Below are positions 6,568 through 10,056 of a stretch of DNA of 64,000 nt, in pieces. Below the pieces are notes generated by a model that worked only from the letters and a program-made list of their open reading frames with translations, was not told where the DNA came from and searched no databases. The position numbers were made by a program, and so were the translations under genes. Origin of the DNA: Parabacteroides faecalis (lineage in GTDB: Bacteria > Bacteroidota > Bacteroidia > Bacteroidales > Tannerellaceae); NCBI RefSeq assembly GCF_022809355.1, contig NZ_JAKZMM010000024.1, positions 1 through 64,000 on the forward strand, in the 5' to 3' direction. Each line of letters starts with the position of its first letter. Within the stretch, counting starts at the first letter, position 1.

Positions 6568-6619
6568 TAACTAAAAAGGCTGTTGTTTCCATTTCCGGAA
6601 GCGACAGCCTTTTTAGTTA
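6568..6619. terminator. Bidirectional terminator between der and the radical SAM gene
   Basis: Perfect 16-bp arms TAACTAAAAAGGCTGT (6568-6583) and its complement (6604-6619) give a hairpin with A/T runs on both sides. It includes the stop codon of the radical SAM gene on the minus strand, so it can serve both convergent units. Confidence 0.85.
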
Positions 6620-7702
6620 ATCTTCCGTCTGTCCTTGAATCCGGTGATAATGACAGACCAGTAATTTCTTTTCTTCATCATGTAGATGCATGCCATTGCC
6701 TTCGCAGTAGCGGAACATCTTGCAGTCTGCGCATATTCCTTGTTTGGCCCAACTGCGGTCGCGATAGGCTTCGAAGCGATTGTTCCAGACGTCCATGAAG
6801 TGATCTTGGTAAATGTTTCCTTGATGGAAATTCGAGCGGATACTGGGACAACCGGAAATGGAACCATCTATCAACACCGAAGCTACACTGATGCCGGCGT
6901 GACATTCATAGAATCCATCGCGTACCTCGCCTTCATAATTCCCCAAGAAACCTTCACAGCCGTAACTGGCTCGTATCACACCTTCCTGGCGACACTGACG
7001 GATGAAGTCGAGTACGGAGACAAACTGCCGGTTGTCTAGCTGTAGTTCCGGCATCGTGGCGGCCCGTCCGACTGGAAAGATGGTGAATATCCGCCAGCGT
7101 TTCACGCCGATACTGACCAGGAAGTCTTTAAACTGCGGCAGGTATGAAATATTCTGTCGGTTCACGCACGTGACAACATCCCAGATGATTTCTTGCTCTT
7201 CTGCCAGCATTCGGATGGCTTGTACCGCTTTCTCAAAACTATGTGGATGACGACGCAGCCAGTTGTGCTCTTTCTCGAATCCATCCAGACTGATTGTCGC
7301 GGCATGCAGACCGGAAGCCAGCAGGCTGTCCAGCCGTTTCCGGTCCAGATAAAGCCCGTTGGAAACGATTCCCCAGGGAAAGCCCCGACGATACAGTTCG
7401 ATTCCACAACTTTCGATGTCTTTTCTCACCAAGGCTTCTCCACCGGTGAAGATGACTAATACTTCATGTGGATTCACATGCGGAGTGATTTCATCAACGA
7501 CGCGCAGAAAATCAGCAACCGGCATGTCTGGAAAAGCCGAAGAAACGCGACAATCGCTTCCACAGTGTCGGCAAGCCACATTACAGCGCAGCGTGCATTC
7601 CCAGAAAAGCGTCTTCAGCTCATGCAGCTTGATTCGGTTCTGATGTATCTTCCGGAAGATTTCCAGGCCAAGTCGTTTGCGTAAGTCAATCTGCTGTTTC
7701 AT
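6617..7702 (-). CDS. Radical SAM/SPASM enzyme of a rSAM/lipoprotein system
   Basis: A 361-residue radical SAM enzyme. The 4Fe-4S motif is C40-NVA-C44-RH-C47, followed by FTGGEAL, the SAM-binding GGE-type element. The C-terminal ~100 residues form a SPASM domain: CHAGISVAS...GCPSIRS...GN, then C-AD-C, C and a final C, giving ligands for auxiliary clusters, as in peptide- and protein-modifying enzymes. It is the last gene of a minus-strand operon and overlaps the 152-residue lipoprotein gene by 17 bases. From memory the arrangement matches the TIGRFAM pair rSAM enzyme/putative lipoprotein (TIGR04133/TIGR04134) of Bacteroidota. What it modifies is not known; the adjacent lipoproteins are the obvious candidates. 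Confidence 0.85.
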   Translation of the reverse strand: MKQQIDLRKRLGLEIFRKIHQNRIKLHELKTLFWECTLRCNVACRHCGSDCRVSSAFPDMPVADFLRVVDEITPHVNPHEVLVIFTGGEALVRKDIESCGIELYRRGFPWGIVSNGLYLDRKRLDSLLASGLHAATISLDGFEKEHNWLRRHPHSFEKAVQAIRMLAEEQEIIWDVVTCVNRQNISYLPQFKDFLVSIGVKRWRIFTIFPVGRAATMPELQLDNRQFVSVLDFIRQCRQEGVIRASYGCEGFLGNYEGEVRDGFYECHAGISVASVLIDGSISGCPSIRSNFHQGNIYQDHFMDVWNNRFEAYRDRSWAKQGICADCKMFRYCEGNGMHLHDEEKKLLVCHYHRIQGQTED

Positions 7703-8144
7703 GTTTCTCCTTTTCTTTCAGGCTGATTGTAATTTCTTTCTCTACTTCACCTGCATACCAATTGTCATCTCCACCTCGAAAATCTTTTTCCGTGAGATGA
7801 ATTTCCTGAACAGTGGGTAAATAGCTTCCGTTTTTATCGCTATCCACATCTTCTGCGGCAATTTTCAGATCAGTAAGTGGAACATAACTGAAGTTCATCT
7901 CGAAAGAACCATCCGTTTCTGTCTTGGTTATAGCGCAGGTGTCATTCTCTCCGAAGATACTTGCCAGCTGAATATTCGGAATGCCTTCCTGATTGCTTGT
8001 TTCCACGCGGCCTTTGATTTGGAAAGTCGCATACGGTGTGCCATATTCTTCAACTCCTGCTGAGCAACCGAAGCCGAGTAACATCAGAAGAAAACTTCCT
8101 ATTCCGTTGAGAAAACGGAGTCGTTTAGTAAGGATACGCTTCAT
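7686..8144 (-). CDS. Putative lipoprotein of the rSAM/lipoprotein system (short form)
   Basis: A 152-residue exported protein. The N-terminus is basic (MKRILTKRLRFLNG), then a hydrophobic stretch ending LGFGC with Cys27 as the likely lipidated residue; Gly at -3 and Phe at -2 are unusual for a lipobox. Directly after comes EEYGTPYATFQIKGRV, the start of a single carboxypeptidase-regulatory-like beta-sandwich. It overlaps the radical SAM gene by 17 bases and the upstream lipoprotein gene by 20, so all three are probably translated in step. N13-G14 and Cys27 sit at identical positions in the longer lipoprotein. Function unknown. Confidence 0.8.
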   Translation of the reverse strand: MKRILTKRLRFLNGIGSFLLMLLGFGCSAGVEEYGTPYATFQIKGRVETSNQEGIPNIQLASIFGENDTCAITKTETDGSFEMNFSYVPLTDLKIAAEDVDSDKNGSYLPTVQEIHLTEKDFRGGDDNWYAGEVEKEITISLKEKEKHETAD

Positions 8145-8961
8145 AACTGTACGATATATTTTGCTCTATACTTCCTTTTCCTTTCAATAGACCCGAACCC
8201 TCGGTTAAAGGCACGCCGTCGAAACGGATCACAACCGAGTCTTCCGGAATATCTTGGCTCCAGCCCGTTTCAGCCGAAGTCACCGGAGAGGTATAAACGA
8301 CAAGCGAATCGCCTTCGCCCGGTGCTTTTTCATAGGTAAACGAATACTCGCCGTTCCAGTTGGAGATGTCGAAGAATTCCTTTGGTTCCTGTCCATTCGC
8401 TTTCCGGGCCGACAGGAAAACCAATGGCATACCCCGGTTGATGGAGTTGGTGATTCGTCCGTAAATTCGGTATTGCAGGTACGGCTCGCTGTACGACTCC
8501 TGATAATCGCGCAGACGAATCGTCTCTTCAGCGGACAGTCTTCCCATAAACCATCCGTCGGCTCCTACGGCACTCTCCGGATCAAACACGGTAATACCCG
8601 TCGTATCCTGATAGATCCGGCAAGTATCTACAATTTTCCATTGGATAGTCTGGAAATCCCTGGGTTCGACACGCTTGTTTTCCCAGATAAATTCTCCGTT
8701 GGCATCCGTTTTCACCGTGTCGCCAATCAGATAATTGTACGGGAAAGTCCCGTCGCTGATAACAACCGGCATATCCGCTACTGCATTCCCTTGCGAATCG
8801 ACAACATGGCCTTTCAGCGAATAAGCTGCGGTCGGTACACCATATTCACAGACAATCGGTTCATTTCCGTTTTCATCCAGGCAGGAAAAGCCCAGCCAGG
8901 CAAGGAGCGTGGCTAAGACGCCATTACAGGTTTTCCAAAGTTTTCGTTTCCATTGTTTCAT
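8125..8961 (-). CDS. Putative lipoprotein of the rSAM/lipoprotein system (long form)
   Basis: A 278-residue exported protein, first gene of the operon. MKQWKRKLWKTCNG precedes a hydrophobic stretch ending LGFSC, with Cys27 as the probable lipid attachment site, just as in its shorter neighbour. CEYGVPTAAYSLKGHV opens a first carboxypeptidase-regulatory-like domain (about 38-140); a second similar one starts near EPYLQYRIYGRI (about residue 160). The C-terminus is Ser/Gly/Tyr-rich (GSGLLKGKGSIEQ...SYSYEAYPY). No enzyme motif is present. TAAATTTG at 8976-8969 resembles a -7 box but would give an almost leaderless transcript. Family assignment is from context and memory; role unknown. Confidence 0.78.
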   Translation of the reverse strand: MKQWKRKLWKTCNGVLATLLAWLGFSCLDENGNEPIVCEYGVPTAAYSLKGHVVDSQGNAVADMPVVISDGTFPYNYLIGDTVKTDANGEFIWENKRVEPRDFQTIQWKIVDTCRIYQDTTGITVFDPESAVGADGWFMGRLSAEETIRLRDYQESYSEPYLQYRIYGRITNSINRGMPLVFLSARKANGQEPKEFFDISNWNGEYSFTYEKAPGEGDSLVVYTSPVTSAETGWSQDIPEDSVVIRFDGVPLTEGSGLLKGKGSIEQNISYSYEAYPY

Positions 8962-9096: not shown

Positions 9097-9213
9097 AATT
9101 CTTTAGTTCACGGCGCGGTTTACTTAGTTCACGTCGTGGATTAAGTAGTTCACGTCGTGGATTAAGTAGTTCACGCCGTGGATTACTTAGTTTACACCGT
9201 GAACTAAAGAATT
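9097..9213. repeat. Five 21-bp palindromic repeats inside a 17-bp inverted repeat
   Basis: Units of 21 bp start at 9106, 9127, 9148, 9169 and 9190; the consensus is GTTCACGTCGTGGATTAAGT plus A, and each holds an imperfect TTCACG/CGTGGA dyad. The whole array is closed by perfect 17-bp arms at 9097-9113 and 9197-9213. It lies between divergent genes (lipoprotein operon and the MntA/HepT pair), so it cannot be a shared terminator. The remaining intergenic DNA (8962-9096, 9214-9398) holds only promoter-like sequence near its ends. Confidence 0.9.
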
Positions 9214-9398: not shown

Positions 9399-9692
9399 AT
9401 GAAATCAACAGTTGAGTGTATAAATCTTTTACGAGATTATGTAACGAAGAATGCTGCTAAATATAGTATTATTCGTATGGGAATATTTGGTTCTGTAGCA
9501 AGAGGGGAACAAACGGAAGATAGTGATATAGATGTTTACTTGGAAACTTCAAAGCCAAGTATGTTTGCCATGGTACATATAAAAGAAGATTTACAAGATT
9601 TATTTGGCTGTCGCGTGGATCTTGTCCGTTTACGTGAACATATGGATTCTTTTTTAAGGAGCAGGATAGAAAAGGAGGGCATTTATGTATGA
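9399..9692 (+). CDS. MntA-type nucleotidyltransferase antitoxin
   Basis: A 97-residue minimal nucleotidyltransferase. It carries the MntA signature GS-x10-DxD as GSVARGEQTEDSDIDVYLE (about residues 31-49), followed by a third acid in CRVDLVRL. In characterised pairs such proteins neutralise a HEPN toxin by adding AMP to a toxin tyrosine. The stop overlaps the next ORF by 8 bases, which fits a toxin-antitoxin operon. AT-rich relative to the housekeeping genes around it, consistent with acquisition. Confidence 0.85.
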   Translation: MKSTVECINLLRDYVTKNAAKYSIIRMGIFGSVARGEQTEDSDIDVYLETSKPSMFAMVHIKEDLQDLFGCRVDLVRLREHMDSFLRSRIEKEGIYV

Positions 9693-10056
9693 TAGCGAGT
9701 TAGTTCGTTCTTCTTTAATAAAAATACAGACTGCTTTAGATAGAATATTACAACGGTCTGAAACCATTCTTTCTCCAGATGATTTTTTAATAACTCCAAG
9801 TGGGATTGAGAGAATGGAAAGTATTTGTATGCTGTTGATTGTGATAGGGGAAAGCGTAAAGCGAATAGATAAAGTTACAAATAAAGAATTGTTATCCTTT
9901 TATCCTGAAATAGATTGGAAAGGAGTAATGGGAATGCGTGATATTATTGCCCATCATTATTTCGATATAGATGCTTCTATCGTATTTGATGTTATTAAAA
10001 ATAATCTTCCTGAGGTAAAAGTAGTTATTGATAAGATGTTGTCCACATATAAATAA
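9685..10056 (+). CDS. HepT-like HEPN ribonuclease toxin (DUF86)
   Basis: A 123-residue helical protein of the HepT/DUF86 group. The RNase motif R-x4-H-x-Y is present as RDIIAHHY near residue 94-101: Arg and His are the catalytic pair and Tyr is the residue AMPylated by MntA partners in studied systems. It overlaps the antitoxin gene and follows it in the usual order. Predicted to cleave RNA when free of its partner. The pair may act in stress or phage defence, but this is inferred from the family only. Confidence 0.85.
   Translation: MYDSELVRSSLIKIQTALDRILQRSETILSPDDFLITPSGIERMESICMLLIVIGESVKRIDKVTNKELLSFYPEIDWKGVMGMRDIIAHHYFDIDASIVFDVIKNNLPEVKVVIDKMLSTYK

Follow-up and report, generated by a model that had tools for sequence, protein, structure and literature searches.

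The closest described counterpart of the system studied here is PlpXY from Pleurocapsa, a splicease that includes a radical S-adenosylmethionine (SAM) enzyme. PlpXY is described as follows: it cuts a tyramine equivalent out of X-Y-G, that its natural sites are MYG and LYG, that no leader is necessary and that each splice removes 135.0757 Da; the tags in use derive from PIRPxYGLPI and AVAAxYGVVFP (PMC10533398). PlpX was studied together with PlpY, a truncated recognition element (RRE) of ribosomally synthesized and post-translationally modified peptides, and is assigned to IPR026482 (PMC11002830). We analysed a 64,000-nucleotide stretch of Parabacteroides faecalis DNA (contig NZ_JAKZMM010000024.1, positions 1 to 64,000; called the window below) that carries an operon of two lipoprotein genes and one radical SAM/SPASM enzyme gene. 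The enzyme belongs to TIGR04133 (rSAM_w_lipo) and the lipoproteins belong to TIGR04134 (lipo_with_rSAM), two families whose names and descriptions hold no motif, site or chemistry. In the literature searched, we found no paper naming TIGR04133 or TIGR04134 and none combining a splicease with a lipoprotein; Scott et al. 2022 (Chem) may cover part of the subject. The partner proteins of TIGR04133 enzymes share a Y-G-x-P tag that is similar to the PlpXY sites. From these comparisons, we favour, with moderate confidence, the view that TIGR04133 enzymes are radical SAM/SPASM protein modifiers that recognize and alter Y-G, most likely by splicease-like chemistry.

In the window, three overlapping open reading frames (ORFs) on the minus strand encode lipoprotein 1, lipoprotein 2 and the enzyme (Table 1). 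The two lipoprotein genes overlap by 20 bases (8125-8144) and lipoprotein 2 overlaps the enzyme gene by 17 bases (7686-7702). Coordinates and domains agree with the three-gene operon proposed in the first-pass annotation, and the TIGRFAM pair named there was recovered. The enzyme matched TIGR04133 over its full length (625.1 bits, cut-off 425, positions 1-350 of 350), and the lipoproteins matched TIGR04134 with 100.5 and 98.8 bits (cut-off 39.8). The Radical_SAM and SPASM domains of the enzyme exceed the Pfam cut-offs; for the lipoproteins, the beta-sandwich assignment comes from CarboxypepD_reg matches that stay under their cut-off. Across 47 aligned enzymes, that of the window among them, cysteines C40, C44, C47, C51, C179, C249, C267, C285, C324, C327, C333 and C350 are invariant. 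The P. faecalis genome has a single TIGR04133 match, and the two window lipoproteins are its only TIGR04134 proteins over the cut-off. Both are tagged, with 7 and 13 residues as the distances from the lipobox cysteine forward to the tag.

The Y-G-x-P tag, which is new in this analysis, is the feature best common to the partner proteins. We compared 207 TIGR04133-type enzyme genes from 204 loci. These genes are distinct over the last 200 residues and include near relatives, for example two from B. fragilis; one truncated enzyme (L056) was excluded. A partner was defined as an adjacent signal-bearing ORF of at most 350 aa with YGxP, the signal peptides of the relatives being judged by a script's hydrophobicity rule, not by a trained program. 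Such a partner was present at 185 of the 207 enzyme genes. Background signal-like ORFs located more than 3.5 kb away contained YGxP in 1 case out of 289, and YG alone in 56. After removal of chance-looking ORFs (8 of 236 YGxP ORFs), at least 181 of the 204 loci retained a YGxP partner. A pattern scan in which the tag was not presupposed ranked YGxP first among 68,037 three-residue patterns, with 182 of 203 loci against a background of 3.8% per locus; the two-residue scan was uninformative. The 22 enzyme genes lacking an adjacent YGxP partner were sorted by hand. Fourteen of them have a YG variant, a distant or downstream copy, or a partner with no signal peptide (L085, L156, L158, L174, L197, L163, L183, L204, L194, L205, L202, L216, L164 and, weakly, L121). 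A few of the YG variants may be chance, because YG alone is common in background ORFs. At four loci (L070, L073, L185, L213) the upstream sequence was too short to judge, and four are exceptions considered below.

The tag carriers are linked to the enzyme well beyond the window. TIGR04133 (E <= 1e-60) was detected in 105 of 392 sampled genomes of the order and in 8 of 396 of the class. Among the 392 genomes of the order, 58 have TIGR04134 over the cut-off and 56 of these also have a TIGR04133 match at the same threshold, one of them (G743) having only a broken piece of the enzyme. Co-occurrence is beyond chance (56/58 as against 105/392 overall). Gene overlap is frequent among relatives, though not universal: where a TIGR04134-type gene immediately precedes the enzyme gene (163 relatives), spacing counted from the first possible start codon gave 84 genes overlapping or abutting the enzyme frame, 63 with a gap below 50 bases and 16 with a gap of 50-300 bases. 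At L094:5362-7077, lipoprotein and TIGR04133 enzyme form one frame of 571 aa, possibly a fusion and possibly an assembly error. Loci from named genomes, which are the best 80 of 128 relatives, include Parabacteroides, Tannerella forsythia, Bacteroides fragilis, B. heparinolyticus and Alistipes. The pair also occurs in a spirochaete, on plasmid pTS1 of Treponema saccharophilum (L236), where it is preceded by a gene for an Mpi-family recombinase. This points to a transfer beyond the phylum. Linkage by itself proves no substrate, and the partners might be unmodified, their genes staying adjacent by inheritance alone. Such an explanation is very improbable in view of the co-occurrence, of the persistence of the linkage across 207 diverged enzyme genes despite scaffold changes, and of the same pair on the Treponema plasmid.

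The form of the tag was then established from 291 occurrences, which give the consensus [EMCVK]-Y-G-[TVSA]-P-x-x-x-[YF]. The third residue varies (T 33, V 29, S 12, A 5 and P 4 percent) and each partner has one to three copies. YG is present in 180 of 182 TIGR04134-type partners. In 67 unselected representatives of these, Y is conserved at 96%, G at 96%, P at 91% and the lipobox Cys at 96%; this set is free of the choice made for alignments A1 and A3, which were hand-picked and excluded L068 and the first L055 protein, both without YG. The first YGxP often lies close behind a lipobox-like Cys (median 10 residues, n = 224), and at 52 of the 207 enzyme genes this cysteine immediately precedes YG (C-Y-G). 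In partners with a sandwich domain, this first YGxP leads into the domain's earliest conserved stretch. Such a position would suit a role of YGxP in structure or sorting, as part of the tail after the signal peptide, the target of the enzyme being another region of the partner or a small molecule. The retention of YG in 3 of 5 genomes without an intact enzyme, described below, points the same way. We consider this alternative unlikely, as YGxP also occurs near the C terminus and in repeats (L162, L165, L164) and in coiled-coil-like and lipobox-free proteins.

Overall, 27 YGxP partners that are not beta-sandwich proteins were inspected. Beyond the beta-sandwich, the tag is carried by coiled coils, low-complexity lipoproteins, proteins sorted by the type IX secretion system (T9SS) and proteins without a lipobox. 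The beta-sandwich was rejected as substrate determinant: scaffolds change while YG stays. At L164, downstream of the enzyme, an ORF without signal peptide has three tandem DDVECIYGPPPGFDD-type repeats. Some proteins start with Gln-Tyr-Gly after a likely signal peptidase I site, and in 6 of 8 tested a T9SS sorting domain exceeded the Pfam cut-off. That signal peptidase I leaves Gln as the new N-terminal residue is known as the Bacteroidetes Q-rule (PMC5837995). For seven of these eight proteins, the coding gene lies apart from that of the enzyme; L221 is one of the seven, and its genome yielded no TIGR04133 gene. In three, the P after YG is missing. Two paths thus seem to take the tag to the surface, the lipoprotein path and type IX secretion. 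The first-pass annotation had also put forward a radical modification of exported lipoproteins, to be doubted if homologues of the enzyme mostly occurred without them. The adjacent YGxP partner found at most enzyme genes shows the reverse, and near-constant linkage together with the common tag argues for modification; the beta-sandwich lipoprotein turns out to be only one of several scaffolds.

To place the enzyme, similarity scores alone were not discriminating and were discarded. Trees were built for this reason. In a tree of 56 rows, 21 TIGR04133 and 18 TIGR04103-like enzymes came together in a single clade (99/97), the remaining 17 SPASM-type rows falling outside, a grouping that is partly expected since the TIGR04103-like set and the outgroups came from similarity searches and other SPASM families are missing. 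A first, smaller and quicker tree with 7 outgroup rows gave the same grouping at 86 SH-aLRT. It included L218-L220, divergent relatives below the TIGR04133 cut-off that have no YG partner; the second tree excluded them. PlpX is, we presume, a TIGR04103 member. Among the 18 TIGR04103-like enzymes, YG partners were found for Nostoc, L227, L229 and Agathobacter (MYG) and, as DUF1843 peptides lacking the P, for L223-L225 and Aureibacter; the Tropicibacter row comes from annotation only. On the Nostoc plasmid, a TIGR04103-named enzyme, a Nif11 precursor ending in YGLPPELF and a 71 aa protein stand in a row. Two further observations concern this group. L229:2949-3599 encodes a 214 aa protein beside the TIGR04103-like enzyme, with six KYGYP repeats, five of which are KYGYPC. 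In L238, an Agathobacter rectalis plasmid, a short ORF ending in GPVMYGTGVRM, possibly an X-Y-G peptide, precedes the TIGR04103-like enzyme, and a gene for a transporter of the major facilitator superfamily (MFS) lies downstream.

TIGR04134-type proteins encoded away from TIGR04133 genes were considered as a natural experiment. Twenty such places were collected, and later six more. In enzyme-bearing genomes, YG is kept in 15 of 16 loci at which the TIGR04134-type protein is a close one and any enzyme gene lies more than about 3 kb away (L252-L256, L258-L263, L265, L266, L268, L269). The coupled expression expected in the first-pass annotation from the gene overlaps is plausible; these unlinked loci show that it is not essential. 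L264 and L274 have only distant, untagged TIGR04134-type relatives, while L275 and L276, both CYG, adjoin an enzyme gene or part of one. Two other distant relatives without YG, in G477 and G539 (L272, L273), may never have had it. Overall, the orphan proteins give weak support at best.

Several results weigh against splicease-like modification of YG. In the orphan set, L257 has no YG although its genome has the enzyme, and the five genomes without an intact TIGR04133 gene are mixed. YG is absent in two of them, G647 (L222, with GNGSP at the tag position) and G468 (L270), and kept in three, G585 (94% complete; L221, L267), G411 (L271) and G743 (L251). G411 has the last third of an enzyme gene beside L271, and the broken piece in G743 lies elsewhere. 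At TIGR04133 loci L068, L134, L141 and L172, no YG partner was found. In 24 loci without a beta-sandwich partner, which are few and related, some being cut or exceptions, YGxP ranks only tenth (14/24), and when one locus per cluster is taken (8 units) it falls outside the ten best patterns. The case across scaffolds therefore depends mainly on inspection. Among the 18 TIGR04103-like enzymes, no clear adjacent YGxP partner was seen for L226, L228, L230-L235 and Azospirillum. The window enzyme scores 109.6 bits against TIGR04103 (cut-off 725), no better than against TIGR04053 or TIGR03913. Moreover, no match to P0003, a protein taken as PlpY-like only from its place and size, was found in 8142 ORFs (>=50 aa) of 222 loci. 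Finally, PlpXY is choosy, having accepted 2 of 16 tag constructs in FtsZ, and its second tag (YGVVFP) has no P at +3 (PMC10533398). Because YG was lost in only 2 of 5 genomes in the orphan test and because only 2 of the 16 FtsZ constructs were accepted, we reduced our confidence in splicing at YG.

The missing PlpY-like partner would equally fit another radical chemistry on the tag, such as a three-residue cyclophane at Tyr-Gly-X, crosslinking through Tyr, or an oxidized Tyr or Gly. Bonds of the C-C, C-O or C-S type are frequent products of the known SPASM enzymes that act on peptides, and Tyr is aromatic, as in cyclophane motifs. Nevertheless, the tag is similar to the PlpXY sites, and a variable third residue beside Y and G at 96% is easier to reconcile with splicing at X-Y-G than with a bond that involves the third residue. 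These other chemistries, though a serious alternative, are in our view doubtful. As no PlpY-like gene was found and pairwise scores are undistinguished, we liken the proposed action of the enzyme to that of a splicease but refrain from classing it as PlpXY.

Splicease-like modification would proceed as follows. The substrate mark would be Y-G, usually Y-G-x-P, mostly just behind the partner's signal peptide. The precursor would presumably be modified in the cytoplasm, before or during export, perhaps assisted by the conserved signal peptide (LLGF before Cys). X-Y-G would lose a tyramine equivalent (C8H9NO, -135.0757 Da) and become an alpha-keto-beta-amino (ketoamide) residue, leaving the chain unbroken. 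The modified protein would then be displayed as a lipoprotein, probably exposed at the surface, or in some relatives via type IX secretion. There, the ketoamide could inhibit proteases or capture nucleophiles, an idea drawn solely from statements on spliceotides and ketoamides (PMC11117315). It may tentatively be proposed that many Bacteroidales put encoded ketoamides, that is backbone beta-amino acids, into full-length surface proteins with no small-molecule product, the signal peptide doubling as leader. Because C-Y-G sits at the lipobox Cys for 52 of the 207 enzyme genes, the lipid-bearing N-terminal cysteine would there become a beta-amino residue; in QYG proteins exported by T9SS, this would be the N-terminal Gln.

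If this is true, backbone-rewritten electrophilic residues are common on Bacteroidales surface proteins, where proteases of the host or of rivals could be their targets, and the family is a source of more enzymes for leader-free protein tagging. TIGR04133, an orphan enzyme family present in 105 of the 392 genomes sampled from the order, gains a specific candidate site and a mass shift to seek. The first-pass annotation had noted that no chemistry is assigned; this holds for the family descriptions, but a testable prediction can now replace it.

Table 1. Features of the operon region in the window.
Feature	Position	Strand	Details
Lipoprotein 1, TIGR04134 (two matched stretches)	8125..8961	-	278 aa; lipobox-like WLGFSC (Cys27), then CEYGVPTAAY
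Lipoprotein 2, TIGR04134	7686..8144	-	152 aa; lipobox-like LLGFGC (Cys27), then VEEYGTPYATF
Radical SAM/SPASM enzyme, TIGR04133	6617..7702	-	361 aa; CxxxCxxC = C40, C44, C47
YGxPxxx[YF] tag of lipoprotein 1 (YGVPTAAY), proposed modification site	8821..8844	-	sequence and motif table
YGxPxxx[YF] tag of lipoprotein 2 (YGTPYATF), proposed modification site	8022..8045	-	sequence and motif table
Lipoprotein 1 signal peptide to lipobox Cys27	8884..8961	-	sequence reading; alignment A3 consensus LLGFxxC
Lipoprotein 2 signal peptide to lipobox Cys27	8067..8144	-	sequence reading; Gly24 and Cys27 nearly invariant in alignment A3
20-pair hairpin, possible two-way terminator	6571..6616	.	between enzyme gene and convergent der gene

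The hairpin listed in Table 1 was found on the plus strand; the region has 3 terminator-like sites as compared to 3.2 in shuffles, so that the scan is no evidence by itself. The genes examined around the operon are housekeeping or toxin-antitoxin-like. Neighbours were rejected as pathway partners: the window has fabH, era, der, a nucleotidyltransferase/HepT pair and an ftsX-like gene, and neighbours vary among relatives. At 9399-10056 (plus strand), an NTP_transf_2 nucleotidyltransferase and a HepT-like ribonuclease lie in tandem, probably an MNT-HEPN toxin-antitoxin pair. Upstream of the operon, positions 9103-9192 hold a tandem array of 21-base units (TTAGTTCACGTCGTGGATTAA; 4.3 copies, 88% matches).

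Several known systems can be set beside this one. Anaerobic sulfatase-maturating enzymes (anSME) are SPASM enzymes that modify exported proteins in the cytosol, at another residue and motif. Three-residue cyclophane synthases, which make triceptides, use an aromatic-x-x motif whose third residue is constrained. Compared with the TIGR04133/TIGR04134 definitions, to both of which the operon belongs, the partner set described here also includes scaffolds outside the TIGR04134-type profile. With TIGR04103 (nif11-class peptide radical SAM maturase 3), the TIGR04133 enzymes share a clade, and the end of the Nostoc precursor has the YGxPxxx[YF] form. The difference from PlpXY is that no Nif11/NHLP precursor was seen beside TIGR04133, whose partners mostly carry a signal peptide. 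A system for ribosomally synthesized and post-translationally modified peptides is recognized by a leader-core precursor, its cleavage and a small product; the partners in the window have signal peptides and lengths of 152 and 278 aa. As to likeness, PlpXY has a radical SAM enzyme acting on X-Y-G, YG-x-P in one of two tags, whole proteins as substrates and several possible splices per precursor. The window system combines CxxxCxxC and SPASM in the enzyme with X-Y-G in both lipoproteins, its putative substrates.

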